From Trichlorobacter ammonificans (GTDB taxonomy: Bacteria; Desulfobacterota; Desulfuromonadia; Geobacterales; Pseudopelobacteraceae), in contig NZ_OW150024.1 in NCBI RefSeq assembly GCF_933509905.1, forward strand, positions 1,228,001-1,292,000: a stretch of DNA of 64,000 nucleotides, written 5' to 3'. The translations under genes and the position numbers were made by a program. Position 1 is the first letter of the stretch, and the number at the start of each line of letters is the position of its first letter. The notes beneath the pieces were generated by a model. That model was not told the origin of the DNA. It saw only the letters and a program-made list of their open reading frames with translations, and did not search any database. This document shows positions 40,684 through 52,438 of this stretch, one piece after another.

Positions 40684-41802
40684 ATGGACAGGAGGAATAA
40701 CGACGGTGAAAATCCGGGTGGGTTCTCCGTGGCCCGTCTGCTGCAGGAGCGGGGAGTCTCCCGTAGGGATTTTCTGGCATTTTGCTCGGCGATGACTGCC
40801 GCCATGGCCCTTCCCGCCACCATGGCGCCCAAGGTTGTCCACGCTCTGGACAAGGTGCAGCGGCCGACCTTGGTCTGGCTGAACTTCCAGGACTGCACCG
40901 GTGATACCGAGGCGCTCCTGCGGGCGGCGAACCCGACGGTCGGTGAGCTGGTGCTCGATATCCTCTCCATTGACTACCACGAGACCATCATGGCGGCCGC
41001 CGGGCATCAGGCGGAGGCGGCTCTGGAAAAGACCGTGAAGGAGTACAAGGGGAAGTATCTCTGCGTGGTGGAGGGGTCCATTCCGCTGAAGGATGGCGGT
41101 GTGTACGGTTGTATCGGCGGCAAGACCTTTCAGCAGATCGCCAGGCATGTCTGCGGCAATGCGGCGGCAACTATCGCGGTGGGTACCTGTGCCAGTTACG
41201 GCGGGATTGCCGCCGCCGTTCCCAACCCGTCCGGCGCCGTGGGGGTCAGGGAGGCGGTTCCCGGCGCCACGATACTCAATCTGCCCGGCTGCCCCTGCAA
41301 TGCCGATAACCTGACCGCGGTGGTGGTGCACTTTCTCACCTTCGGCAAGCTGCCGGCCATGGACAGCCACGGCAGACCTCTGTTTGCCCACGGCAAGCGG
41401 ATTCACGACAACTGTGAGCGACGTCCCCATTTCGATGCCGGCCAGTATGTTGAAAGCTGGGGTGACGATGCTCACCGCAAGGGATTCTGTCTCTACAAGA
41501 TGGGTTGCAAGGGACCGGCAACCTTCCATAACTGTCCCACCCAGCGGTTCAACGAGAAGGTCAGTTGGCCGGTGGCGGCCGGGCATGGCTGTGTTGGCTG
41601 CTCCGAACCGCAGTTCTGGGATACCTCACCGCTGTACCGTCGCCTGCCCAATGTGCCGGGCTTCGGTATCGAGAAGAGCGCCGACGCCATCGGCCTTGCC
41701 TTTGCAGCGGGCGTGGGCGGCGCCTTTGCCGTGCATGGCGTGGTGAGTGCGCTGCGTAAGGACAAGCCTGCCGCTGAAGAGACCAAGGAAGGGGAGGAAT
41801 AG
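40684..41802 (+). CDS. hyaS: [NiFe] hydrogenase small subunit (Geobacter Hya type)
   Basis: A 372-residue group-1 small subunit. The Tat motif SRRDFLAF lies at residues 26-33 and a C-terminal membrane helix at ~335-355. Medial and distal cluster ligands are present: His240, Cys243, Cys268 and Cys274, then Cys283, Cys302 and Cys305. The proximal motif reads CTGDTE: Cys71 is kept but the second ligand position is Asp74 instead of Cys; the other two are Cys168 (GTCASYGG) and Cys202 (NLPGCP). The codons are tgc acc ggt gat, so this is not a reading error of mine. AGGAGGTG precedes the ATG. The order hyaS-hyaL-hyaB-hyaP is that of the Geobacter uptake hydrogenase. Confidence 0.93.
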   Translation: MDRRNNDGENPGGFSVARLLQERGVSRRDFLAFCSAMTAAMALPATMAPKVVHALDKVQRPTLVWLNFQDCTGDTEALLRAANPTVGELVLDILSIDYHETIMAAAGHQAEAALEKTVKEYKGKYLCVVEGSIPLKDGGVYGCIGGKTFQQIARHVCGNAAATIAVGTCASYGGIAAAVPNPSGAVGVREAVPGATILNLPGCPCNADNLTAVVVHFLTFGKLPAMDSHGRPLFAHGKRIHDNCERRPHFDAGQYVESWGDDAHRKGFCLYKMGCKGPATFHNCPTQRFNEKVSWPVAAGHGCVGCSEPQFWDTSPLYRRLPNVPGFGIEKSADAIGLAFAAGVGGAFAVHGVVSALRKDKPAAEETKEGEE

Positions 41803-41805
41803 GCC

Positions 41806-43509
41806 ATGGCGAAGATTGTCGTTGACCCGATTACCCGCATCGAGGGACACCTGAGGATCGAAGCCGAGCTTGAGGGGGGTACAATCAAGGATGCCTGGAG
41901 CTCCAGCACCATGTACCGCGGTATCGAAAAGATCCTCAAAGGCCGCGATCCTCGTGACGCTTGGTACTGGACCCAGCGTTTCTGCGGCGTCTGTACCACG
42001 GTCCACTCCATCGCTTCGATCCGCGCCGTGGAAAACGCCCTGAAGCTCAAGGTTCCGCCCAATGCGGAACTGATTCGTAACATCATCATCGGCATCCAAA
42101 ACGTGCATGACCATGTTATCCATTTTTACCACCTCCATGCTTTGGACTGGGTGGACATCACCTCGGCTCTCCAGGCCGACCCGGGCAGGACTGCAGCTCT
42201 GGCCGCCTCAGTCTCTGACTGGCCCAAAAACTCTGCCACTCATTTCAAGGCGGTGCAGGAAAAACTGAAGGCCTTCGTCGGTACCGGCCGTCTCGGTCCC
42301 TTTGCCAATGCTTACTGGGGACACCCGGCCTACCGGTTGCCGCCTGAAGCCAACCTGATGGCCACCGCTCACTACCTGGAAGCGTTGGAATGGCAGAAGG
42401 AGATCATCAAGATCCACGCCATTCTGGGCAGCAAGAACCCCCATCCCCAGACCTTCCTGGTGGGGGGGATGTCCATTCCGGTGGACCCGGATTCCCAGAA
42501 CGCCCTGAACGCCGACAAGCTGATCACGGTGAAACGGCTGTTGGCCAAGGCGCAGCAGTTCGTGGAGCAGGTCTACATTCCCGATCTGCTGGCCGTGGCC
42601 TCCTTCTACAAGGACTGGGCCGCCATCGGCGCCGGTGTGGGCAACTACATGAGTTACGGCGACCTGCCCGACCCGGTCAGCGGCAACCTTTGGTTCCCGG
42701 CCGGTATTGTCAGGAACCGGGACCTGGCGAAGCTGCTGCCAGTTGAGCAGCAAAAGGTCGCAGAATTCGTCGATCATTCCTGGTACGAGTACCAGCAGGC
42801 AGGTGCCGGCAAGGGACTGCATCCCTGGGACGGCGAAACGGAAGCAAAGTACACCGGTCCCAAGCCGCCGTACGAATACCTTGATACCTCGGCCAAGTAC
42901 TCCTGGGTCAAGGCGCCGCGCTATGACGAGGCGCCGATGGAAGTGGGGCCCCTGGCCCGGGTGCTGGTGGCCTATGTCGCCGGTCACAAGGAAACCAAAG
43001 CAGCAGTTGAGATGGTGTTGGCCAAACTAGGGGTCGGCCCGGCAGCGCTGTTCTCGACCTTGGGACGTACAGCGGCCCGTGGTATTGATGCACTGTTGAA
43101 TGCCCGCCAAACGCCGGTCTATCTGGAGATGCTTATTGACAACATCGGCAAGGGGGACTACCGCATTCACGCCAACGAGAAGTGGGACCCGCGGGAGTGG
43201 CCCGCCGAGGCCAGTGGCTACGGCTGGCATGAGGCGCCGCGTGGTGCTCTGGGGCACTGGATCAGGATCAAGGACCAGAAAATCTACAACTACCAGGCGG
43301 TGGTTCCTACGACCTGGAACGCTTCACCCCGTGACGGCAAGGGACAACGCGGTCCCTACGAGGCGGCGCTGGTGGGCACACCGATCGCCAAGGCCGACCA
43401 GCCGCTGGAGATTCTGCGCACCATCCATTCCTTCGATCCCTGCCTGGCCTGCGCCGTCCACGTTACCGACGCCACCGGCAACGAACTGGTGCAGATCAGG
43501 GTCTCCTGA
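41806..43509 (+). CDS. hyaL: [NiFe] hydrogenase large subunit
   Basis: A 567-residue large subunit that carries the NiFe(CN)2CO site. The N-terminal ligand motif RFCGVCTTVH has Cys60 and Cys63, and the C-terminal motif DPCLACAVH has Cys546 and Cys549, followed by a 15-residue tail after His552 that the maturation protease must remove. The N-terminus DPITRIEGHLRIE is typical. It is exported with the small subunit through its Tat signal. It follows hyaS by 3 bp. Confidence 0.96.
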   Translation: MAKIVVDPITRIEGHLRIEAELEGGTIKDAWSSSTMYRGIEKILKGRDPRDAWYWTQRFCGVCTTVHSIASIRAVENALKLKVPPNAELIRNIIIGIQNVHDHVIHFYHLHALDWVDITSALQADPGRTAALAASVSDWPKNSATHFKAVQEKLKAFVGTGRLGPFANAYWGHPAYRLPPEANLMATAHYLEALEWQKEIIKIHAILGSKNPHPQTFLVGGMSIPVDPDSQNALNADKLITVKRLLAKAQQFVEQVYIPDLLAVASFYKDWAAIGAGVGNYMSYGDLPDPVSGNLWFPAGIVRNRDLAKLLPVEQQKVAEFVDHSWYEYQQAGAGKGLHPWDGETEAKYTGPKPPYEYLDTSAKYSWVKAPRYDEAPMEVGPLARVLVAYVAGHKETKAAVEMVLAKLGVGPAALFSTLGRTAARGIDALLNARQTPVYLEMLIDNIGKGDYRIHANEKWDPREWPAEASGYGWHEAPRGALGHWIRIKDQKIYNYQAVVPTTWNASPRDGKGQRGPYEAALVGTPIAKADQPLEILRTIHSFDPCLACAVHVTDATGNELVQIRVS

Positions 43510-43524: not shown

Positions 43525-44244
43525 ATGAAAGAAAAAAAATATAAACAGTATATCTGGGAATTGCCGGTCAGGATAAGCCACTGGATCAATGTGATCAGCA
43601 TCGTGGTACTATCGGCAACCGGCATCCTGATCGGCAACCCGTCCTTCATTGACGTCTCGCCGAGCGCCTATCTGATGGGCTGGATCAGGTTCCTGCACTT
43701 CGTCTTCGGCTATGCCCTGGCCATCAGTGTCATTTCACGGATGATCTGGGCGTTTCGGGGGAACTGCTACGCCGGTTGGCGGGAGTATTTTCCCTTCCTC
43801 TGTCCGGTGGGACGCAAGGAGATGAAGGAGGTTTTTGCCTACTATACGTTCAGGAGCAAACATGTTCCCGAAATCACCGGGCATAATCCCATGGCCGCCA
43901 CCGCCTACTTCTTCGTGTTCCTGATCTACTGGTTCATGATCCTGACCGGGTTTGCCATGTATGCGGAGCATGCGCCGGGCGGCCCGATGCATGCCCTGCT
44001 CAAGCCGGTCTATCTGGTGTTGACGACCCAGCAGATGCATCTGTACCATCACGTGGCGATGTACCTGCTCATCGGTTTCGTGATCAACCACATCTACAGT
44101 GCCTGGTTGATGGATATCAAAGAAAAGGGTGGCGAGATTTCCAGTATTTTCAGTGGTTATAAGTTCACATCCAGCCCCTACGCCGTTTGTAAAAGCAGGA
44201 CGTGGGAGCTGTTCCCCTGGCGGAGCAGAAAAAGTAAAAGATAG
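43525..44244 (+). CDS. hyaB: Hydrogenase b-type cytochrome subunit
   Basis: A 239-residue membrane protein of the HupC/HyaC cytochrome b family with four helices. Likely heme ligands lie in VRISHWINV, FLHFVFGY and LYHHVAMY. It takes electrons from the hydrogenase small subunit into the quinone pool. It follows the large subunit by 15 bp. I use the Geobacter naming, where hyaB is the cytochrome (in E. coli this subunit is HyaC). Confidence 0.92.
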   Translation: MKEKKYKQYIWELPVRISHWINVISIVVLSATGILIGNPSFIDVSPSAYLMGWIRFLHFVFGYALAISVISRMIWAFRGNCYAGWREYFPFLCPVGRKEMKEVFAYYTFRSKHVPEITGHNPMAATAYFFVFLIYWFMILTGFAMYAEHAPGGPMHALLKPVYLVLTTQQMHLYHHVAMYLLIGFVINHIYSAWLMDIKEKGGEISSIFSGYKFTSSPYAVCKSRTWELFPWRSRKSKR

Positions 44245-44268: not shown

Positions 44269-44300
44269 GCAACGGGGTGGGCGACCACCCCGTTGCTTTT
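44269..44300 (+). terminator. Strong hairpin between hyaB and hyaP
   Basis: A perfect 12-bp stem (GCAACGGGGTGG/CCACCCCGTTGC) with a four-base loop, followed by only four T. It sits directly in front of the hyaP ribosome site and may reduce expression of the protease relative to the structural genes, as an attenuator or mRNA-stability element. Confidence 0.55.
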
Positions 44301-44309
44301 GGAGGGCAG

Positions 44310-44786
44310 ATGAAAACGTTGATTCTGGGATTGGGCAATACGATTATGACCGATGACGGTGTCGGACCGAAGGTGATCGAACGGTTGCGGCACGATGGGG
44401 AGCTGCCGGTGGAGATATCCCTGCTGGATGGCGGAACCCTGGGACTTGACCTGCTGCCCCACCTTGAAGGGGTGGAGCGGTTAATCATCGTTGATGCCGT
44501 TGAAACCGGCAAGCAGCCGGGAAGCTTGGTGCGACTGGCCGGCGATGAGGTGCCGGCTGCCCTGGAAACCAAGCTGTCACCCCATCAGATGGGATTGAAG
44601 GATCTGCTGGCCGTGGCCCGATTGATGGACTGCCTGCCACCGGAGGTGGTGCTGGTCGGTGTCCAGCCCGACTGCCTGGAACTGGGAACCGAGCTGACAC
44701 CGGCGGTGGCGGCGCAGGTGCCGGAGCTTGCCCGGATGGTCTGTCGGGAGGTTAGAAATCCCCATGCTGCCACATCTCCGGGGTAA
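44310..44786 (+). CDS. hyaP: Hydrogenase maturation protease
   Basis: A 158-residue HyaD/HybD-type endopeptidase. It starts LILGLGNTIMTDDGVGPKV, with Asp in the nickel-sensing position, and has DGGTLGLDLLP, VDAVETG and LSPHQMGLKDLL with the conserved His. It cuts the C-terminal tail of the large subunit after nickel insertion. I start at the ATG after GGAGGG. The 3' end overlaps the convergent diguanylate cyclase gene by 35 bp. Confidence 0.93.
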   Translation: MKTLILGLGNTIMTDDGVGPKVIERLRHDGELPVEISLLDGGTLGLDLLPHLEGVERLIIVDAVETGKQPGSLVRLAGDEVPAALETKLSPHQMGLKDLLAVARLMDCLPPEVVLVGVQPDCLELGTELTPAVAAQVPELARMVCREVRNPHAATSPG

Positions 44787-46788: not shown

Positions 46789-47913
46789 ATGAATGCCCGT
46801 CTCCTGAAAGTTTTGGATGCCACCGTCGGCAGGGTGCTGGCCGGCCGGCTGCCGGTAGCATCGCAAGCAACGCTACTTGGTGACGTTGACTCCATTCTGG
46901 TGATCAGGCCCGGGGGGATTGGCGATGCCCTGCTGCTGGCGGCGATGCTGCGGCGTCTTACGGAGCGCTTTCCCGCAGCCAGAATCGAGCTGCTGGCCGA
47001 AGGCAGAAACGCTGCCGCCTTCACCATGCTGCCGATGGTTGCCGCGGTCCGGCGCTATGACCGCTTCCGTGAGCTCTTCGGACTGTGGGGACGGCGTTAT
47101 GACCTGATCATCGACACGGAGCAATGGTATTGCCTGCCGGCCGTGCTGGCCCGGCTGTTGCGCGCCGGGCGTCATATCGGCTTTACCGGCAACAATCGGG
47201 AGCGATTGCGGACCGATCCGGTTGTCTACGATTCGGCAGACTGGGAGCGCGAGCAGTTTTTGAGGCTGCTTGAGCCGCTGGGGTGTGATGCCGCAACGGA
47301 GGGTGCCGGGGAGCTGCTGCGCCTGCCGGACCAGGCGCGGCAGCGGGCTGACAGTCTGCTGGAGCCGCTGGGGGGCGGGCGGATCGTCGCACTCTTTCCC
47401 GGTGCCAGCGTGCCGGAGAAATCCTGGCCAGCCGAGCGTTTTGCGGCGGTGGTCCGCGCCCTTGCCGTGCAGGGGTGGCAGCCGGTGGTGGTGGGCGGAG
47501 CGGCGGAGGCGGCGGCGGGCGAGCGGATCGTGCGGGAGGCCGGCGGCATGACCTGCGCCGGTATGACCACGCTGGCAGAAAGCCTTGCCGTCATTGCCCG
47601 CAGCTCCCTGTTTATCAGCGGCGATTCCGGTCTGCTGCACGGGGCCGCCCTGCTGGGGGTGCCGACGGTGGCGCTGTTCGGTCCCAGTGATCCCCGGAAA
47701 TGGGCTCCCCGTGGTCCCGGTAGTGTGGTGGTGTGTTGCCGGCTCCCCTGTTCCCCCTGCTCCCGGTACGGCACCATTCCTCCCTGTTCCCAGGGCTGTC
47801 GCTGCATGGAGGAGATCGGCGTTCGGGAGGTGCTGGCGGCGGCAGAGTGTCTGTTACGGCCAGATGGAGAGGGTGAGCAGGAGCGGGAAAAGGTTGAGGG
47901 TCGCGAAGAGTAG
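46789..47913 (+). CDS. Glycosyltransferase family 9 (heptosyltransferase-like)
   Basis: About 374 residues with the two Rossmann-like halves of GT9 enzymes: ILVIRPGGIGDALLL near the N-terminus, then FPGASVPEKSWPAERFA and SGDSGLLHGAALLGVPTVALFGPSDPRKWAP near the C-terminus. These transfer heptose or related sugars to the lipopolysaccharide core. A Cys-rich segment (CCRLPCSPCS...CSQGCRC) near the end is common in this family. I start at the ATG of MNARLLKVL; an open frame extends 31 codons upstream. The 3' end overlaps the convergent heme farnesyltransferase gene by 60 bp. Confidence 0.85.
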   Translation: MNARLLKVLDATVGRVLAGRLPVASQATLLGDVDSILVIRPGGIGDALLLAAMLRRLTERFPAARIELLAEGRNAAAFTMLPMVAAVRRYDRFRELFGLWGRRYDLIIDTEQWYCLPAVLARLLRAGRHIGFTGNNRERLRTDPVVYDSADWEREQFLRLLEPLGCDAATEGAGELLRLPDQARQRADSLLEPLGGGRIVALFPGASVPEKSWPAERFAAVVRALAVQGWQPVVVGGAAEAAAGERIVREAGGMTCAGMTTLAESLAVIARSSLFISGDSGLLHGAALLGVPTVALFGPSDPRKWAPRGPGSVVVCCRLPCSPCSRYGTIPPCSQGCRCMEEIGVREVLAAAECLLRPDGEGEQEREKVEGREE

Positions 47914-48666
47914 CCGGTCTGAACGCAGGGCGGTCAGTACCGGCAGCAGCAGGACCAGCGGCATGAACCAGAGGGCGCGGCTCGGTGAAATGACGCTGAA
48001 AAGCGGCAGGAACAGCGCCGCCGCAGCCAGGGCCGTGACCCAGAGCGGCAGCAGTGGGGCATGGCGGGCTTGCCGGGAGATGTCGCAGATAGGGAGGCGG
48101 GCGGTGCGGTATTCATCCCGGTAACGTTGTTGCAGCAGCCAGAAGTGGGGGATCTGCCAGAGGAACATCACGCCGGCCACCAGCAGAATCCGGTGATCGG
48201 TGGCGGCGCCGCCGGCCAGGCACCAGCCGATGAGCGGCGGCAGCGCGCCGCAGAGGGCACCCAGGGGGAGTGCCAGGGAGGTCCGTCCTTTGAGGGGAGT
48301 GTAGACCGCCAGATACCAGACAAGGGCGCCACCGGCAAGCAGCAGTGGAACAGCGCTGTCCAGGCAACCCAGCCAGAGCAGGCCGGCGCAGATTAGCAGA
48401 CCGCCGGCTCCGGCCGCCGTGCCGGGGGAGAGATCGCCGCCGGCAACGGGACGCCGGCGCGTCCGTTCCATCAGGCGGTCCCGTTCCCGCTCCATGACTT
48501 GGTTCAGCGCGGAACCGCCGGCGGCCAGGAGAGCGGTGCCGCCGAAGGCAGTCCAGGCCGCTGCCGCTTCAACGGCGGCGGGGTAGAGCAGGTACCCCCC
48601 CAGGGCGGCCACCCCGTTCATCAATGCCAGCCGCCAACGCAGCAAGAGCAGGAACGACGTCGTCAC
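47854..48666 (-). CDS. ctaB: Protoheme IX farnesyltransferase (heme O synthase)
   Basis: A 270-residue UbiA-type prenyltransferase with about eight helices. The prenyl-diphosphate motif NQVMERERDRLMERTRRRP and the second motif RYRDEYRTARLP are present. It makes heme O for the terminal oxidase encoded upstream. The GTG start overlaps the coxB stop (GTGA). It is the last gene of the oxidase operon. Confidence 0.9.
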   Translation of the reverse strand: MTTSFLLLLRWRLALMNGVAALGGYLLYPAAVEAAAAWTAFGGTALLAAGGSALNQVMERERDRLMERTRRRPVAGGDLSPGTAAGAGGLLICAGLLWLGCLDSAVPLLLAGGALVWYLAVYTPLKGRTSLALPLGALCGALPPLIGWCLAGGAATDHRILLVAGVMFLWQIPHFWLLQQRYRDEYRTARLPICDISRQARHAPLLPLWVTALAAAALFLPLFSVISPSRALWFMPLVLLLPVLTALRSDRLLFATLNLFPLLLTLSIWP

Positions 48667-49868
48667 TTCAGTCCCTCTATCCAGGTTATCAGTGCATTCA
48701 GTTCAGCTTCGGAGAGATCGGGGTAGGCCGGCATCACCGGCTGGAACCCGTCCACAACGGTGGCGCCGGGCTCCTTGATCGACTCCTTCAGAAAAGCGGC
48801 GTCCGCCGTCACGCGCACTGTTTTTCCGCCCTTGTGTACCGTGACCTGGGAGCCGGACAATCCCTTCAGCGTCGGTCCGACCCCGGGGCTGCCGTCAAGG
48901 GAGTGGCAACCCAGGCACCCCTTTTCCTGCGCCAGCGCCGCGGCATCGATCGCCTGCGGTGCGGCACCTCCGCGCCGCAGGTAGTCAATAATCTGCTTCA
49001 GTTCTTCTTCAGGCAGTTGGTAGGGAGGCATGGCGGGAGCGAAGCCCTTGACCACGTCGGTGTTGGGGGCACTGATTGATGTTCGCAGGTACGCTTCGTC
49101 CACAATAATGTTCCGTTCAATGCCGTTGCTCAGTACCGCCGTCGTTCTGCCCCAGATCCCCTTGAAACTGGGGCCGATCTTGGGGGAACCGTCGGTGGAG
49201 TGACAGCCGAGACAGCCGTGTTGCTCCAGCAGCGCCAGACCGGGATGGGGGCCGCCTCCCTTGGTTCCTTCCTTCAGCCAGGCGGCAAACTCGGCTTCCG
49301 GCAGCGCTTCCACGGTGGTGATCATGGCAGAATGGCCGGTACCGCAGTAGGAGGAACAGAAAATATCGTAGGAGCCGGGCTTGGGGGCGGAAAACCAGAC
49401 ATGGTTGGTCATGCCCGGCACGATATCACGCTTGACCCGGAAGGCCGGGATGTAGAAGCCGTGCAACACGTCCACGGAGGTCAGGTTGACCTTCACCGGC
49501 CGTCCCACCGGCACGTAGAGCTTGGCACTGCTGCGGCCGCCGGTGTAGGCGAAATTCCAGGACCACATCCGGGCCGTGGCGTTCACCTCCAGCGCCCCCG
49601 GCGGTACGTTGCGCAGGGCCAGGTAGCCGGCCCAGCCGTAGTAGAACATGGCCAGCACCAGCAGGGTGGGCAGCAGGGTCCAGACGATCTCCAGCCAGAG
49701 ATTGCCGTCGGCATCGGAGGTGGGCTGCGGCGCGCGGGAGCGGCGGTAGCGGACCACGAACCAGACCATGACCGCGGTAATCCCCAGCAGCAGGACCAGG
49801 CTGGCGCCGAAAATGAAGATGAAGACCGGATCGATCGCCTCGTTGGTTGTCAGGTAGGTGGTTTTCAC
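48663..49868 (-). CDS. coxB: Cytochrome c oxidase subunit II with two cytochrome c domains
   Basis: A 401-residue subunit II: one or two N-terminal helices, the cupredoxin domain with the CuA ligands (His in VLHGFYIPA, then CSSYCGTGHSAM), and two C-terminal cytochrome c domains, each with CLGCH and a Met further on. It is thus a caa3-like subunit with a second fused heme domain. It takes electrons from periplasmic cytochromes to subunit I. The GTG start is preceded by GGAG. Confidence 0.93.
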   Translation of the reverse strand: MKTTYLTTNEAIDPVFIFIFGASLVLLLGITAVMVWFVVRYRRSRAPQPTSDADGNLWLEIVWTLLPTLLVLAMFYYGWAGYLALRNVPPGALEVNATARMWSWNFAYTGGRSSAKLYVPVGRPVKVNLTSVDVLHGFYIPAFRVKRDIVPGMTNHVWFSAPKPGSYDIFCSSYCGTGHSAMITTVEALPEAEFAAWLKEGTKGGGPHPGLALLEQHGCLGCHSTDGSPKIGPSFKGIWGRTTAVLSNGIERNIIVDEAYLRTSISAPNTDVVKGFAPAMPPYQLPEEELKQIIDYLRRGGAAPQAIDAAALAQEKGCLGCHSLDGSPGVGPTLKGLSGSQVTVHKGGKTVRVTADAAFLKESIKEPGATVVDGFQPVMPAYPDLSEAELNALITWIEGLK

Positions 49869-49877
49869 GGCAACTCC

Positions 49878-50171
49878 TCAGCGATAGAGCACGTCGAAAA
49901 AGGTAAGACCGATGAAGACCGCCAGGGTGAGCAGGGCAACGAACAGCAGAATCTTCAGCAGACGGTTTTCATACTTCATGTGCATGAAGACGGCGATGAC
50001 CAGTCCTGCCTTGATACAGGCCACCGTCAGCGCCCCCACAACCTTGAAGCCGCCCAGGTCAATGCGGGTGATCAGGACGGTGACGGCGGTGAGCAGCAAC
50101 AGCAGCACCCAGATGATGGTCAGGGTCCGGTAGCTGACGGGATGATGGTGGTCGGAAGCGTGTGCGTTCAT
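49878..50171 (-). CDS. Cytochrome c oxidase subunit IV
   Basis: A 97-residue protein with three helices, matching the caa3/quinol oxidase subunit IV family. A His-rich N-terminus (MNAHASDHHHPVSYR) precedes the first helix. It stabilises the oxidase complex. It lies between coxC (10 bp) and coxB (9 bp). Confidence 0.85.
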   Translation of the reverse strand: MNAHASDHHHPVSYRTLTIIWVLLLLLTAVTVLITRIDLGGFKVVGALTVACIKAGLVIAVFMHMKYENRLLKILLFVALLTLAVFIGLTFFDVLYR

Positions 50172-50180
50172 GGCCGTTTC

Positions 50181-50783
50181 CTAGAGCATGAGATAGTAGA
50201 GCGGAAAGATGAAAATCCAGATCAGATCCACCAGGTGCCAATACAGGGCGCCGTTTTCCAGCAGCACGTAGTCGCTGCCGGTGACCTCACCCTTTTTGAC
50301 CTGCAGGGCCACCCAGGCCAGCAGGGCGGCGCCGATCAGCACGTGCAGGCCGTGGATGCCGGTGCTCATGTAGTAGAGGCTGAAGAAGACCGATTCACCC
50401 GGCGGTCCCTGCGTCAGTTTGGCCGATCCGGGGTAGATGCCGTGATGGATCTTGGCACTCCACTCGAAGTACTTGATCACCATGAAACCGGCGGCGCAGA
50501 GGATGGTGCCGCCCAGCAGCCGCAGGGTCAGGGGGCGGTTGTCCTGTTGGATGGCCGTCACCGCCATGGCGGCGAACAGGCTGCTGGTCAGCAGGATCAG
50601 GGTGTTGATGCAGCCCAGCACCACGTTGAGCTGGTGGCCGCCGGTTGAAAACTCCTGGGGATAGCGGGCCAGGTAGACGGCGTAGAGGACGAACAGTCCG
50701 CCGAATAGCAGCAGTTCCGTGAACAAAAACAACCACATGCCGAGTTTCGCGCCGGCATAGTCCTTATGCACTGGATGGTTCAT
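50181..50783 (-). CDS. coxC: Cytochrome c oxidase subunit III
   Basis: A 200-residue membrane protein with five helices, the shorter subunit III type found in bacterial caa3 and bo3 oxidases. Typical patterns are KLGMWLFLFTELLLFGGLF and TGIHGLHVLIGA and the C-terminal YWHLVDLIWIFIFPLYYL. It overlaps the coxA stop by 4 bp. Confidence 0.93.
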   Translation of the reverse strand: MNHPVHKDYAGAKLGMWLFLFTELLLFGGLFVLYAVYLARYPQEFSTGGHQLNVVLGCINTLILLTSSLFAAMAVTAIQQDNRPLTLRLLGGTILCAAGFMVIKYFEWSAKIHHGIYPGSAKLTQGPPGESVFFSLYYMSTGIHGLHVLIGAALLAWVALQVKKGEVTGSDYVLLENGALYWHLVDLIWIFIFPLYYLML

Positions 50784-52438
50784 GGTGAGGTCCCGTTGGT
50801 GTCGCCTGCAATACGGTGCTGCAGTGCCTTGAAGTCATAGGGGCCATGGGTTACCACCGGTTCGCCGGTGAAGTTCAGGGTCGGCGGCGGGGTGGGGGTG
50901 GTCCATTCCAGGGTGGCGCCGCCCCAGGGGTTGCCGGTGAACGGCGCGCCCCGGAAAAGCCCTTGGAAGAGGTTCACCAGCATGATGACCAGGCCCAGTG
51001 CCAGAATCCAGCTGCCCACGGTGGCCACCAGGTTCAGGTTGGCGAACTCCGGCAGATAGTCGTAGTAGCGCCGCGGCATCCCCTGCATCCCCAGCACCTT
51101 CATGGAAAAATAGAGCAGGTTGAAACCGACGAACAGGAATCCCCAGGCGATCACCGCCGGACGGACGGCGTAGGTGCGGCCGTAAAACTTGGGCAGCCAG
51201 TAGTGCATGGCGGCGAAGAAGGCGAAACCGGTGCCGCCGAACATGACGTAGTGGAAGTGTCCCACCACGAAGTGGGTGTCGTGCACATGCACGTCGGTGG
51301 CGGCGGCACCGAGGATCAGGCCGGTGAGGCCGCCGATGGAGAAGAGCAGGATGAAGGTGAGCGCGAACAACATCGGCGGATCAAGGGAAATGGAACCTTT
51401 GTAGAGGGTGGAAACCCAGTTGAATACCTTGATGGCCGAGGGAATGGCCACGATGAAGGTCAGGAAGGAGAAGACCAGCACGGCGGTGTCGCTCATGCCG
51501 CTGGTGAACATATGGTGCCCCCAGACCAGCGATCCGGCGGCGGCAATGGCCAGGCTGGAGAAGGCGATCATCTTGTAGCCGAAGATCGGCTTGCGGGAAA
51601 AGACCGGAATGATCTCCGAGATCACCCCCATGGCCGGCAGGATCATGATGTAGACCGCGGGATGGGAGTAGATCCAGAAGAGGTGCTGGAACATGATCGG
51701 ATCCCCCCCCCGGGCGGCGTCGAAGAGGCCGGTGCCCAGCATCCGCTCCGCGATCACCAGCACCAGGGTGATCCCCAGCACCGGGGTGGCCAGAATCTGC
51801 ACCCAGGCGGTGGCGTACAGGGACCAGGTGAACAGGGGGATGCGGCTCCAGGTCATCCCTTCTGCCCGCAGGCGATGGATGGTGGTGACGAAGTTGATGC
51901 CGGTGAGGATGGAGGAGAAGCCCAGGATGAAGACGCCGAACAGGGCCAGGGAAACGTTGGTGCCGGTACGGGCGCTGAAGGGAACGTAGAAGGTCCAGCC
52001 GGTGTCCGGTGCCCCGCCGCCGGTAAAGAGGGAGAGCAGCACCAGGACGGTGCCGATGACGTAGAGCCACCAGGAGAAGAGGTTCAGGCGGGGGAAGGAG
52101 ACGTCCGCCGCGCCGATCTGGATCGGCATGACCATGTTGCCGAAGGCGCCGGGAATGCCGGGAATGATGAAGAGGAAGATCATCACCACGCCATGTACCG
52201 TGAAGACGGCATTGTAGGTCTGGGCCGACATGATATCCCGGCCGGGAGCCATCAGTTCCAGCCGCAGCGCAAGCCCCAGCAGAACCCCCACCAGGAAGAA
52301 GGCCAGCACGGAATAGAAATACAGAAGACCGATCCGCTTGTGGTCGGTGGAGAATATCCAGGAACCGATGCCGGTTGCGCCGGTATCGGTCCAGAACCCC
52401 CGCTCGGTCGTCATCTGGGCCTGTTCCGTCATGCTCAT
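50780..52438 (-). CDS. coxA: Cytochrome c oxidase subunit I (A2-type haem-copper oxidase)
   Basis: A 552-residue subunit I with 12 helices. Heme and CuB ligands are in FTVHGVVM, IYSHPAVYIMILP, GHHMFTSG and HDTHFVVGHFHYVMFGG. The proton-channel motif is YSHPxV instead of the GHPEV form with glutamate, so it belongs to the A2 class, like Thermus caa3. It reduces O2 to water and pumps protons. It overlaps the SCO gene upstream and coxC downstream by 4 bp each. Confidence 0.95.
   Translation of the reverse strand: MSMTEQAQMTTERGFWTDTGATGIGSWIFSTDHKRIGLLYFYSVLAFFLVGVLLGLALRLELMAPGRDIMSAQTYNAVFTVHGVVMIFLFIIPGIPGAFGNMVMPIQIGAADVSFPRLNLFSWWLYVIGTVLVLLSLFTGGGAPDTGWTFYVPFSARTGTNVSLALFGVFILGFSSILTGINFVTTIHRLRAEGMTWSRIPLFTWSLYATAWVQILATPVLGITLVLVIAERMLGTGLFDAARGGDPIMFQHLFWIYSHPAVYIMILPAMGVISEIIPVFSRKPIFGYKMIAFSSLAIAAAGSLVWGHHMFTSGMSDTAVLVFSFLTFIVAIPSAIKVFNWVSTLYKGSISLDPPMLFALTFILLFSIGGLTGLILGAAATDVHVHDTHFVVGHFHYVMFGGTGFAFFAAMHYWLPKFYGRTYAVRPAVIAWGFLFVGFNLLYFSMKVLGMQGMPRRYYDYLPEFANLNLVATVGSWILALGLVIMLVNLFQGLFRGAPFTGNPWGGATLEWTTPTPPPTLNFTGEPVVTHGPYDFKALQHRIAGDTNGTSP

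Follow-up and report, generated by a model that had tools for sequence, protein, structure and literature searches.

Replacement of the second Cys ligand of the proximal cluster has been described in several [NiFe] hydrogenases and is already known for Geobacter at the family level (PMC4070099, PMC5364354). Table 1 of the first of these papers (2014) gives a Cys-to-Asp change at proximal position 2 for a G. metalloreducens protein that may or may not be Hya, together with a Cys-to-Asn change for an N. punctiforme protein, and the same paper reports that an engineered Alteromonas enzyme was active in H2 evolution with either C81D or C81N at this position (PMC4070099). In the second paper (2016), group 1f of Roseiflexus, Geobacter and Frankia is described as having Asn or Asp in place of this Cys, group 2a as having Asn, and group 1h as using Asp as the fourth ligand (PMC5364354). 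The proximal cluster of group 1h is described as a [4Fe-4S] cluster held by three Cys and one Asp (PMC5364354, PMC7174314). The matches listed in our literature search included no spectroscopic study of a group 1f enzyme.

The DNA analysed here is a 64,000-nucleotide stretch of the Trichlorobacter ammonificans genome (the window), which contains a hya cluster of four genes on the forward strand, all with intact ORFs. The first gene, hyaS (40684-41802), encodes a [NiFe] hydrogenase small subunit of 372 aa with no stop inside, the translation of which contains ...WLNFQDCTGDTEALL.... The product matches the group 1 small-subunit family TIGR00391 with 452.9 bits (curated cut-off, 179.5), as well as PF14720 and PF01058, and is predicted to be Tat-exported (TAT_signal_seq, 24.1 versus 16.7); its twin-arginine signal region, with the motif SRRDF, lies at residues 25-54 (40756-40845; TIGR01409). 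The following genes are hyaL (41806-43509), encoding the large subunit (PF00374, 784.9 bits; both nickel motifs have their CxxC pairs), hyaB (43525-44244), encoding a b-type cytochrome membrane subunit (TIGR02125, 141.9 bits; cut-off, 121.5), and hyaP (44277-44786), encoding a large-subunit maturation protease (TIGR00072, 163.8 bits versus 47.45; PF01750). The first nickel motif of HyaL reads RFCGVC, and RICGVC is found in both E. coli enzymes and in HoxG. A Tat signal, a large subunit, a b-type cytochrome and a protease in one cluster, arranged in the hya order, are typical of group 1f, and all of them are present here.

The S-L-b-protease order matches that of named Geobacter loci, as a sequence-only reading of this DNA had stated. 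The S-L-b order was found in all of the 12 loci checked and the protease in 10 of them (12 of 80 loci, from the best 80 of 320 relatives). Among these best 80, the closest named isolate is Trichlorobacter thiogenes, with 86% identity. The T. ammonificans genome (3.06 Mb, single contig) encodes two further group-1 small subunits, both with the motif CTGC; thus, the substitution described below is confined to the Hya enzyme in this organism.

Codons 71-76 of hyaS read TGC ACC GGT GAT ACC GAG and give C71-T-G-D74. The phmmer alignment places residues 60-362 of HyaS on residues 6-308 of Ralstonia HoxK without a gap, with Cys71 (40894-40896) on Cys17 and Asp74 (GAT, 40903-40905) on Cys20, where the second proximal Cys ligand stands. 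The sequence-only reading had claimed an Asp at this ligand position, and the check for a misalignment came out in favour of the claim. Its numbering was right for Cys71 and Asp74; the two remaining ligands, given as Cys168 and Cys202, were each numbered one too low and are Cys169 (41188-41190; HoxK Cys115) and Cys203 (41290-41292; HoxK Cys149). Cys71 is invariant in the 113 close relatives defined below and in 100 Cys-type rows, and Cys169 and Cys203 are also invariant. The distal ligands His241, Cys244, Cys269 and Cys275 and the medial ligands Cys284, Cys303 and Cys306, all assigned by the HoxK alignment, are conserved in each of the 113 relatives, and the medial Pro296 in 112. An AlphaFold model of HyaS, built from 41 sequences and of moderate confidence (mean pLDDT 74.5, pTM 0.72; without metals), matched solved hydrogenase small subunits in a Foldseek search with E values down to 2.8e-27.

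We gathered 220 distinct small subunits, 218 of which cover the motif; the other two are a cut hybO (L247) and a fragment (L163; short ORF of 133 aa). This collection is not a census: it is weighted to the close relatives of HyaS, of which the best 80 of 320 were kept, and only part of the listed places from the phylum sample, in which 190 of 296 genomes had a match, entered it. Residue 74 is Asp in 106 rows, Asn in 11 and Cys in 101. The rows scoring above 440 bits against HyaS number 113 and carry Asp (104) or Asn (9) without exception, the top Cys row reaching 439.0 bits. In a quick tree of the 218 rows, the 113 form one group with a branch support of 83 and no Cys row inside, and the same 113 rows are obtained whether they are picked by residue 74, by score alone or by this tree; their comparison with 100 Cys-type rows leaves out four distant Asp/Asn rows (L113, L161, L244 and L249) and one Cys row (L162). 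A more careful tree, built with the motif columns masked from 101 of the 218 rows that remained after thinning (62 of 106 Asp, 11 of 11 Asn and 28 of 101 Cys), recovered the matching Hya clade as 69 rows (60 Asp and 9 Asn) with a support of 99/98, and it warns of meeting long branches, including those of Sulfobacillus and a group 1h pair. The replacement of Cys by Asp goes far back in the Hya clade and is not peculiar to this genome. A reading of the Asp as a special feature of this enzyme is not supported, as Asp or Asn is common to all 113 close relatives and the substitution was published in 2014 and 2016 (PMC4070099, PMC5364354). A sequencing error, a private mutation or a decayed gene is practically excluded: every one of the 113 close relatives has Asp or Asn here, these relatives come from many assemblies, some of them of isolates, and all four hya ORFs are intact.

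Outside the Hya clade, Asp occurs at this position as CDGD in the group 1h small subunits of Cupriavidus necator (HofK), Methylocystis and Streptomyces and in the 1h-like gene L161, and the remark in the sequence-only reading that group 1h of Ralstonia has the same Asp agrees with the HofK sequence. Asn is found in Sulfobacillus (CDGN), Sulfurimonas (CAGN) and Huc (PDB 7UTD; CSGN), as well as in four plasmid-borne 2a-like proteins (CSGN or CNGN) from Runella, Sulfobacillus (a second protein), Mesorhizobium and Roseovarius; 2a-like here means that, among solved structures, the Runella protein matches Huc best and that the other three are grouped with it by motif. Sulfobacillus and Sulfurimonas lie on long branches of the careful tree, and their places are unsure. 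A homologue from an A. macleodii plasmid has CTGC at this position. Several loci in the collection are of note in their own right. One genome of the same family as T. ammonificans (G028; L160 and L161) has five small-subunit matches, including the 1h-like CDGD gene and an Asn-type Hya, and another genome (G022; L073/L109 and L159) has a pair of hyaS-like genes, each of which encodes Asp at the motif and the starts of which are separated by about 4 kb. Group 1h small subunits are named 'hydrogenase expression protein HypE' in the plasmid records L113 (4963-6018), L258 and L259, a misleading label: the protein of L113 has the same sequence as HofK in PDB 5AA5.

Within the Hya clade, Asp and Asn have replaced each other at least seven times (seven changes on 197 of 200 bootstrap trees and eight on the other three). 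All 117 Asp/Asn rows have a GAY or AAY codon at position 74, and a single G/A step is therefore enough for the swap. Asn is present in the isolate Pelotalea chapellei (L059), which indicates that it is not merely an assembly effect, and for seven of the nine Asn rows there is an Asp row with 79-89% identity (60% and 70% for the remaining two). Because the exchange has been repeated, the fourth corner of the cluster seems, as far as sequence comparison can tell, to require a side chain with a carboxylate or carboxamide group but not a negative charge.

Two further positions stand out in the comparison. At position 205 (41296-41298), two residues past the ligand Cys203, HyaS has Cys; Pro stands there in 86 of the 101 Cys rows and in none of the 117 Asp/Asn rows, 15 Cys rows being without Pro; Huc has Ala there, and the aligned group 1h proteins have Val or Ile. 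A tree-aware test of positions 205 and 74, on a quick tree without a mixture model, yielded only three independent pairs (on average, 1.3 changing in the same way, 0.0 in opposite ways and 1.7 with no difference; median p = 1), and the apparent pairing of the two positions is thus a pattern and not proof. One protein (L185, from G101) has Cys at 74 and Val at 205 and takes a weakly supported position (95/65) as the sister of the Hya clade; it may represent an intermediate that lost Pro205 earlier than Cys. The second position, His282 (41527-41529), lies two residues ahead of the medial ligand Cys284 and is a mark of the Hya clade: among the rows above 440 bits, 111 of 113 have it, compared with 0 of 105 among the lower-scoring rows. 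Sulfobacillus and Sulfurimonas have Asn at position 282, and the aligned group 1h rows have Cys. The repeated Asp/Asn exchange in one clade and the patterns at Pro205 and His282 are absent from the passages of the above papers that deal with residue 74 (PMC4070099, PMC5364354), and they would be a modest addition to what is in print.

From these sequence comparisons, we propose, with a probability of roughly 60%, that HyaSLBP is a Tat-exported, membrane-anchored H2/quinone enzyme of the 1f type, the proximal [4Fe-4S] cluster of which would be bound by three Cys and one Asp as an old trait of the clade. The enzyme would act as a periplasmic, membrane-bound H2:quinone oxidoreductase, passing electrons between H2 and the quinone pool via the b-type cytochrome; we infer both that quinone is the partner and which way the electrons flow. 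Three corners of its proximal cluster would be bound by Cys71, Cys169 and Cys203. Asp74 would occupy the remaining corner and most likely contribute an oxygen ligand to a [4Fe-4S] cluster, an arrangement also reported for group 1h. We infer this cluster type and ligation from the gap-free placement of Asp74 on HoxK Cys20, the presence of Asp or Asn in all 113 close relatives and the retention of the other ligand positions. The same reading is favoured because HofK, a member of a family reported to have 3Cys/1Asp ligation (PMC5364354, PMC7174314), has CDGD at the same place, and because the C81D and C81N variants of the Alteromonas enzyme were both active (PMC4070099). The conservation of the S-L-b order and, for the most part, of the protease across the loci checked also speaks for the proposed enzyme. 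The AlphaFold model counts for little as regards an Asp-ligated cluster, because it is of moderate confidence and contains no metals.

Asn is a poor iron ligand, and its repeated exchange with Asp in the Hya clade weakens the case for an Asp-ligated [4Fe-4S] cluster, since it suggests that the negative charge is not needed. The Asn-bearing Huc weakens it further, for its proximal cluster is of the [3Fe-4S] type, as are its two others, by cryo-EM and EPR (PMC10017518). The proximal cluster of Hya may therefore be a [3Fe-4S] cluster with an empty fourth corner, where Asp74 or Asn only fills the gap or hydrogen-bonds across it. Neither Huc nor Hya has Pro205. In other proteins, a cluster with an Asp ligand can contain a labile iron, and substitution of a Cys in PsaC can give a 3Fe cluster (PMC4070099). 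However, Asp has been kept in 104 of the 113 Hya rows, the Asp-bearing group 1h is described with a [4Fe-4S] proximal cluster (PMC5364354, PMC7174314), and Huc belongs to a different group, in which the surroundings of the cluster differ. On balance, we regard a [3Fe-4S] cluster in Hya as unlikely, but as an explanation to be taken seriously. If it were present, the potential of the cluster would be higher and the enzyme would be biased to H2 oxidation, as proposed for Huc.

Another Cys could in principle serve as the fourth ligand and make the cluster all-Cys. Cys205 lies two residues away from Cys203, itself a ligand, and Cys157 is far more frequent in the Hya clade (107 of the 113 rows) than among the Cys-type rows (8 of 100). 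However, Cys205 is found in 43 and Cys143 in 88 of the 113 rows, so that none of the three extra Cys residues is invariant, whereas Asp or Asn occurs in all; furthermore, Cys157 in the model ends a helix ahead of the strand leading to Cys169 and is probably far from the cluster. We consider a surrogate Cys ligand very improbable.

The preferred 3Cys/1Asp reading and the [3Fe-4S] alternative might both apply within the clade. The Hya enzymes would then be a natural allelic series, in which Asp goes with a [4Fe-4S] cluster having a labile Asp-bound iron and Asn with a [3Fe-4S] cluster, the two states being swapped by one G/A codon change with a shift in potential, and in which His282 and the loss of Pro205 belong to the same retuning. 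This idea is speculative, and the chance that it is right is small. If true, the potential of the first electron acceptor would shift by approximately 250 mV between the cluster types, a value that comes from work on Huc (PMC10017518). The alternation of Asp and Asn among Hya enzymes means that a comparison of pairs could show how the residue at the fourth corner sets the cluster type, the potential and the response to oxygen, although such pairs differ at other residues too.

The sequence-only reading had also pointed to an aerobic oxidase in this organism, and a haem-copper oxidase operon (COX1, COX2 with cytochrome c domains, COX3 and COX4) with a UbiA-family gene, which perhaps has a role in haem synthesis, is indeed located near hya (47854-52438, reverse strand). 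Beyond this operon, up to 55386, there are a multihaem cytochrome gene and a cytochrome b gene. Hya is reportedly tied to oxidative stress in the title of Tremblay and Lovley 2012. Asp at this position has been linked with O2 tolerance in group 1h (PMC7174314, PMC5364354), and groups 1f and 2a are said to mediate aerobic H2 oxidation, in the case of 1f to sub-atmospheric levels in Acidobacterium ailaaui (PMC6776052). Asp74 itself might be the device for O2 tolerance, and Hya an O2-tolerant enzyme of H2 uptake that is coupled to the oxidase encoded nearby. Against this, the tolerance of group 1h is also put down to a narrow gas tunnel, and the isolated 1h enzyme of Methylacidiphilum seems to be impeded by O2 when H2 is not present (PMC7174314). 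In G. sulfurreducens, Hya is not regarded as the uptake hydrogenase in two proteomics studies, one of which suggests a role in H2 formation (PMC7894505, PMC8691401). In addition, the oxidase genes (48663-52438) lie on the opposite strand to hya, and their proximity is known from this window alone. We consider this combined explanation doubtful; oxygen tolerance of Hya as such is plausible, a fair hypothesis rather than a finding.

Among the known systems, the O2-tolerant group 1d enzymes (MBH and E. coli Hyd-1) share with Hya the fold, the overall chain and a b-type cytochrome partner. They differ in having CTCC and an additional Cys120, and HyaS is not of their Cys6 [4Fe-3S] type, because the extra Cys residues at HoxK positions 19 and 120 are replaced by Gly73 and Gly174. 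As for group 2a, Huc of Mycobacterium smegmatis (PDB 7UTD) resembles HyaS in having a residue other than Cys at position 74 and has Ala at 205. To our knowledge, enzymes of the Huc type have no Tat signal, and HyaS has both a Tat signal and Asp74 rather than Asn. Huc further differs in its three [3Fe-4S] clusters and in its partner proteins (PMC10017518). HofK/HofG of Cupriavidus necator (group 1h; PDB 5AA5) shares with HyaS the Asp of CDGD and a non-Pro residue at 205. However, HofK is only 26% identical to HyaS, has Cys at the medial Pro position (GGCPN versus SWPVA in HyaS) and lies with L161 on a separate long branch, and the Methylacidiphilum 1h enzyme has neither the Tat signal found in HyaS nor a membrane anchor (PMC5364354). 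Membership in group 1h was rejected on the basis of the Tat signal, Pro296, the low identity to HofK and the placement of the latter. In contrast, group 1f as described for Geobacter, Roseiflexus and Frankia has Asp or Asn at the second proximal position and keeps the three Cys ligands (PMC5364354), as does HyaS (C71-T-G-D74, C169 and C203). With its class taken from the Geobacter label in these papers and no difference from it detected, HyaS appears to be one more group 1f orthologue.
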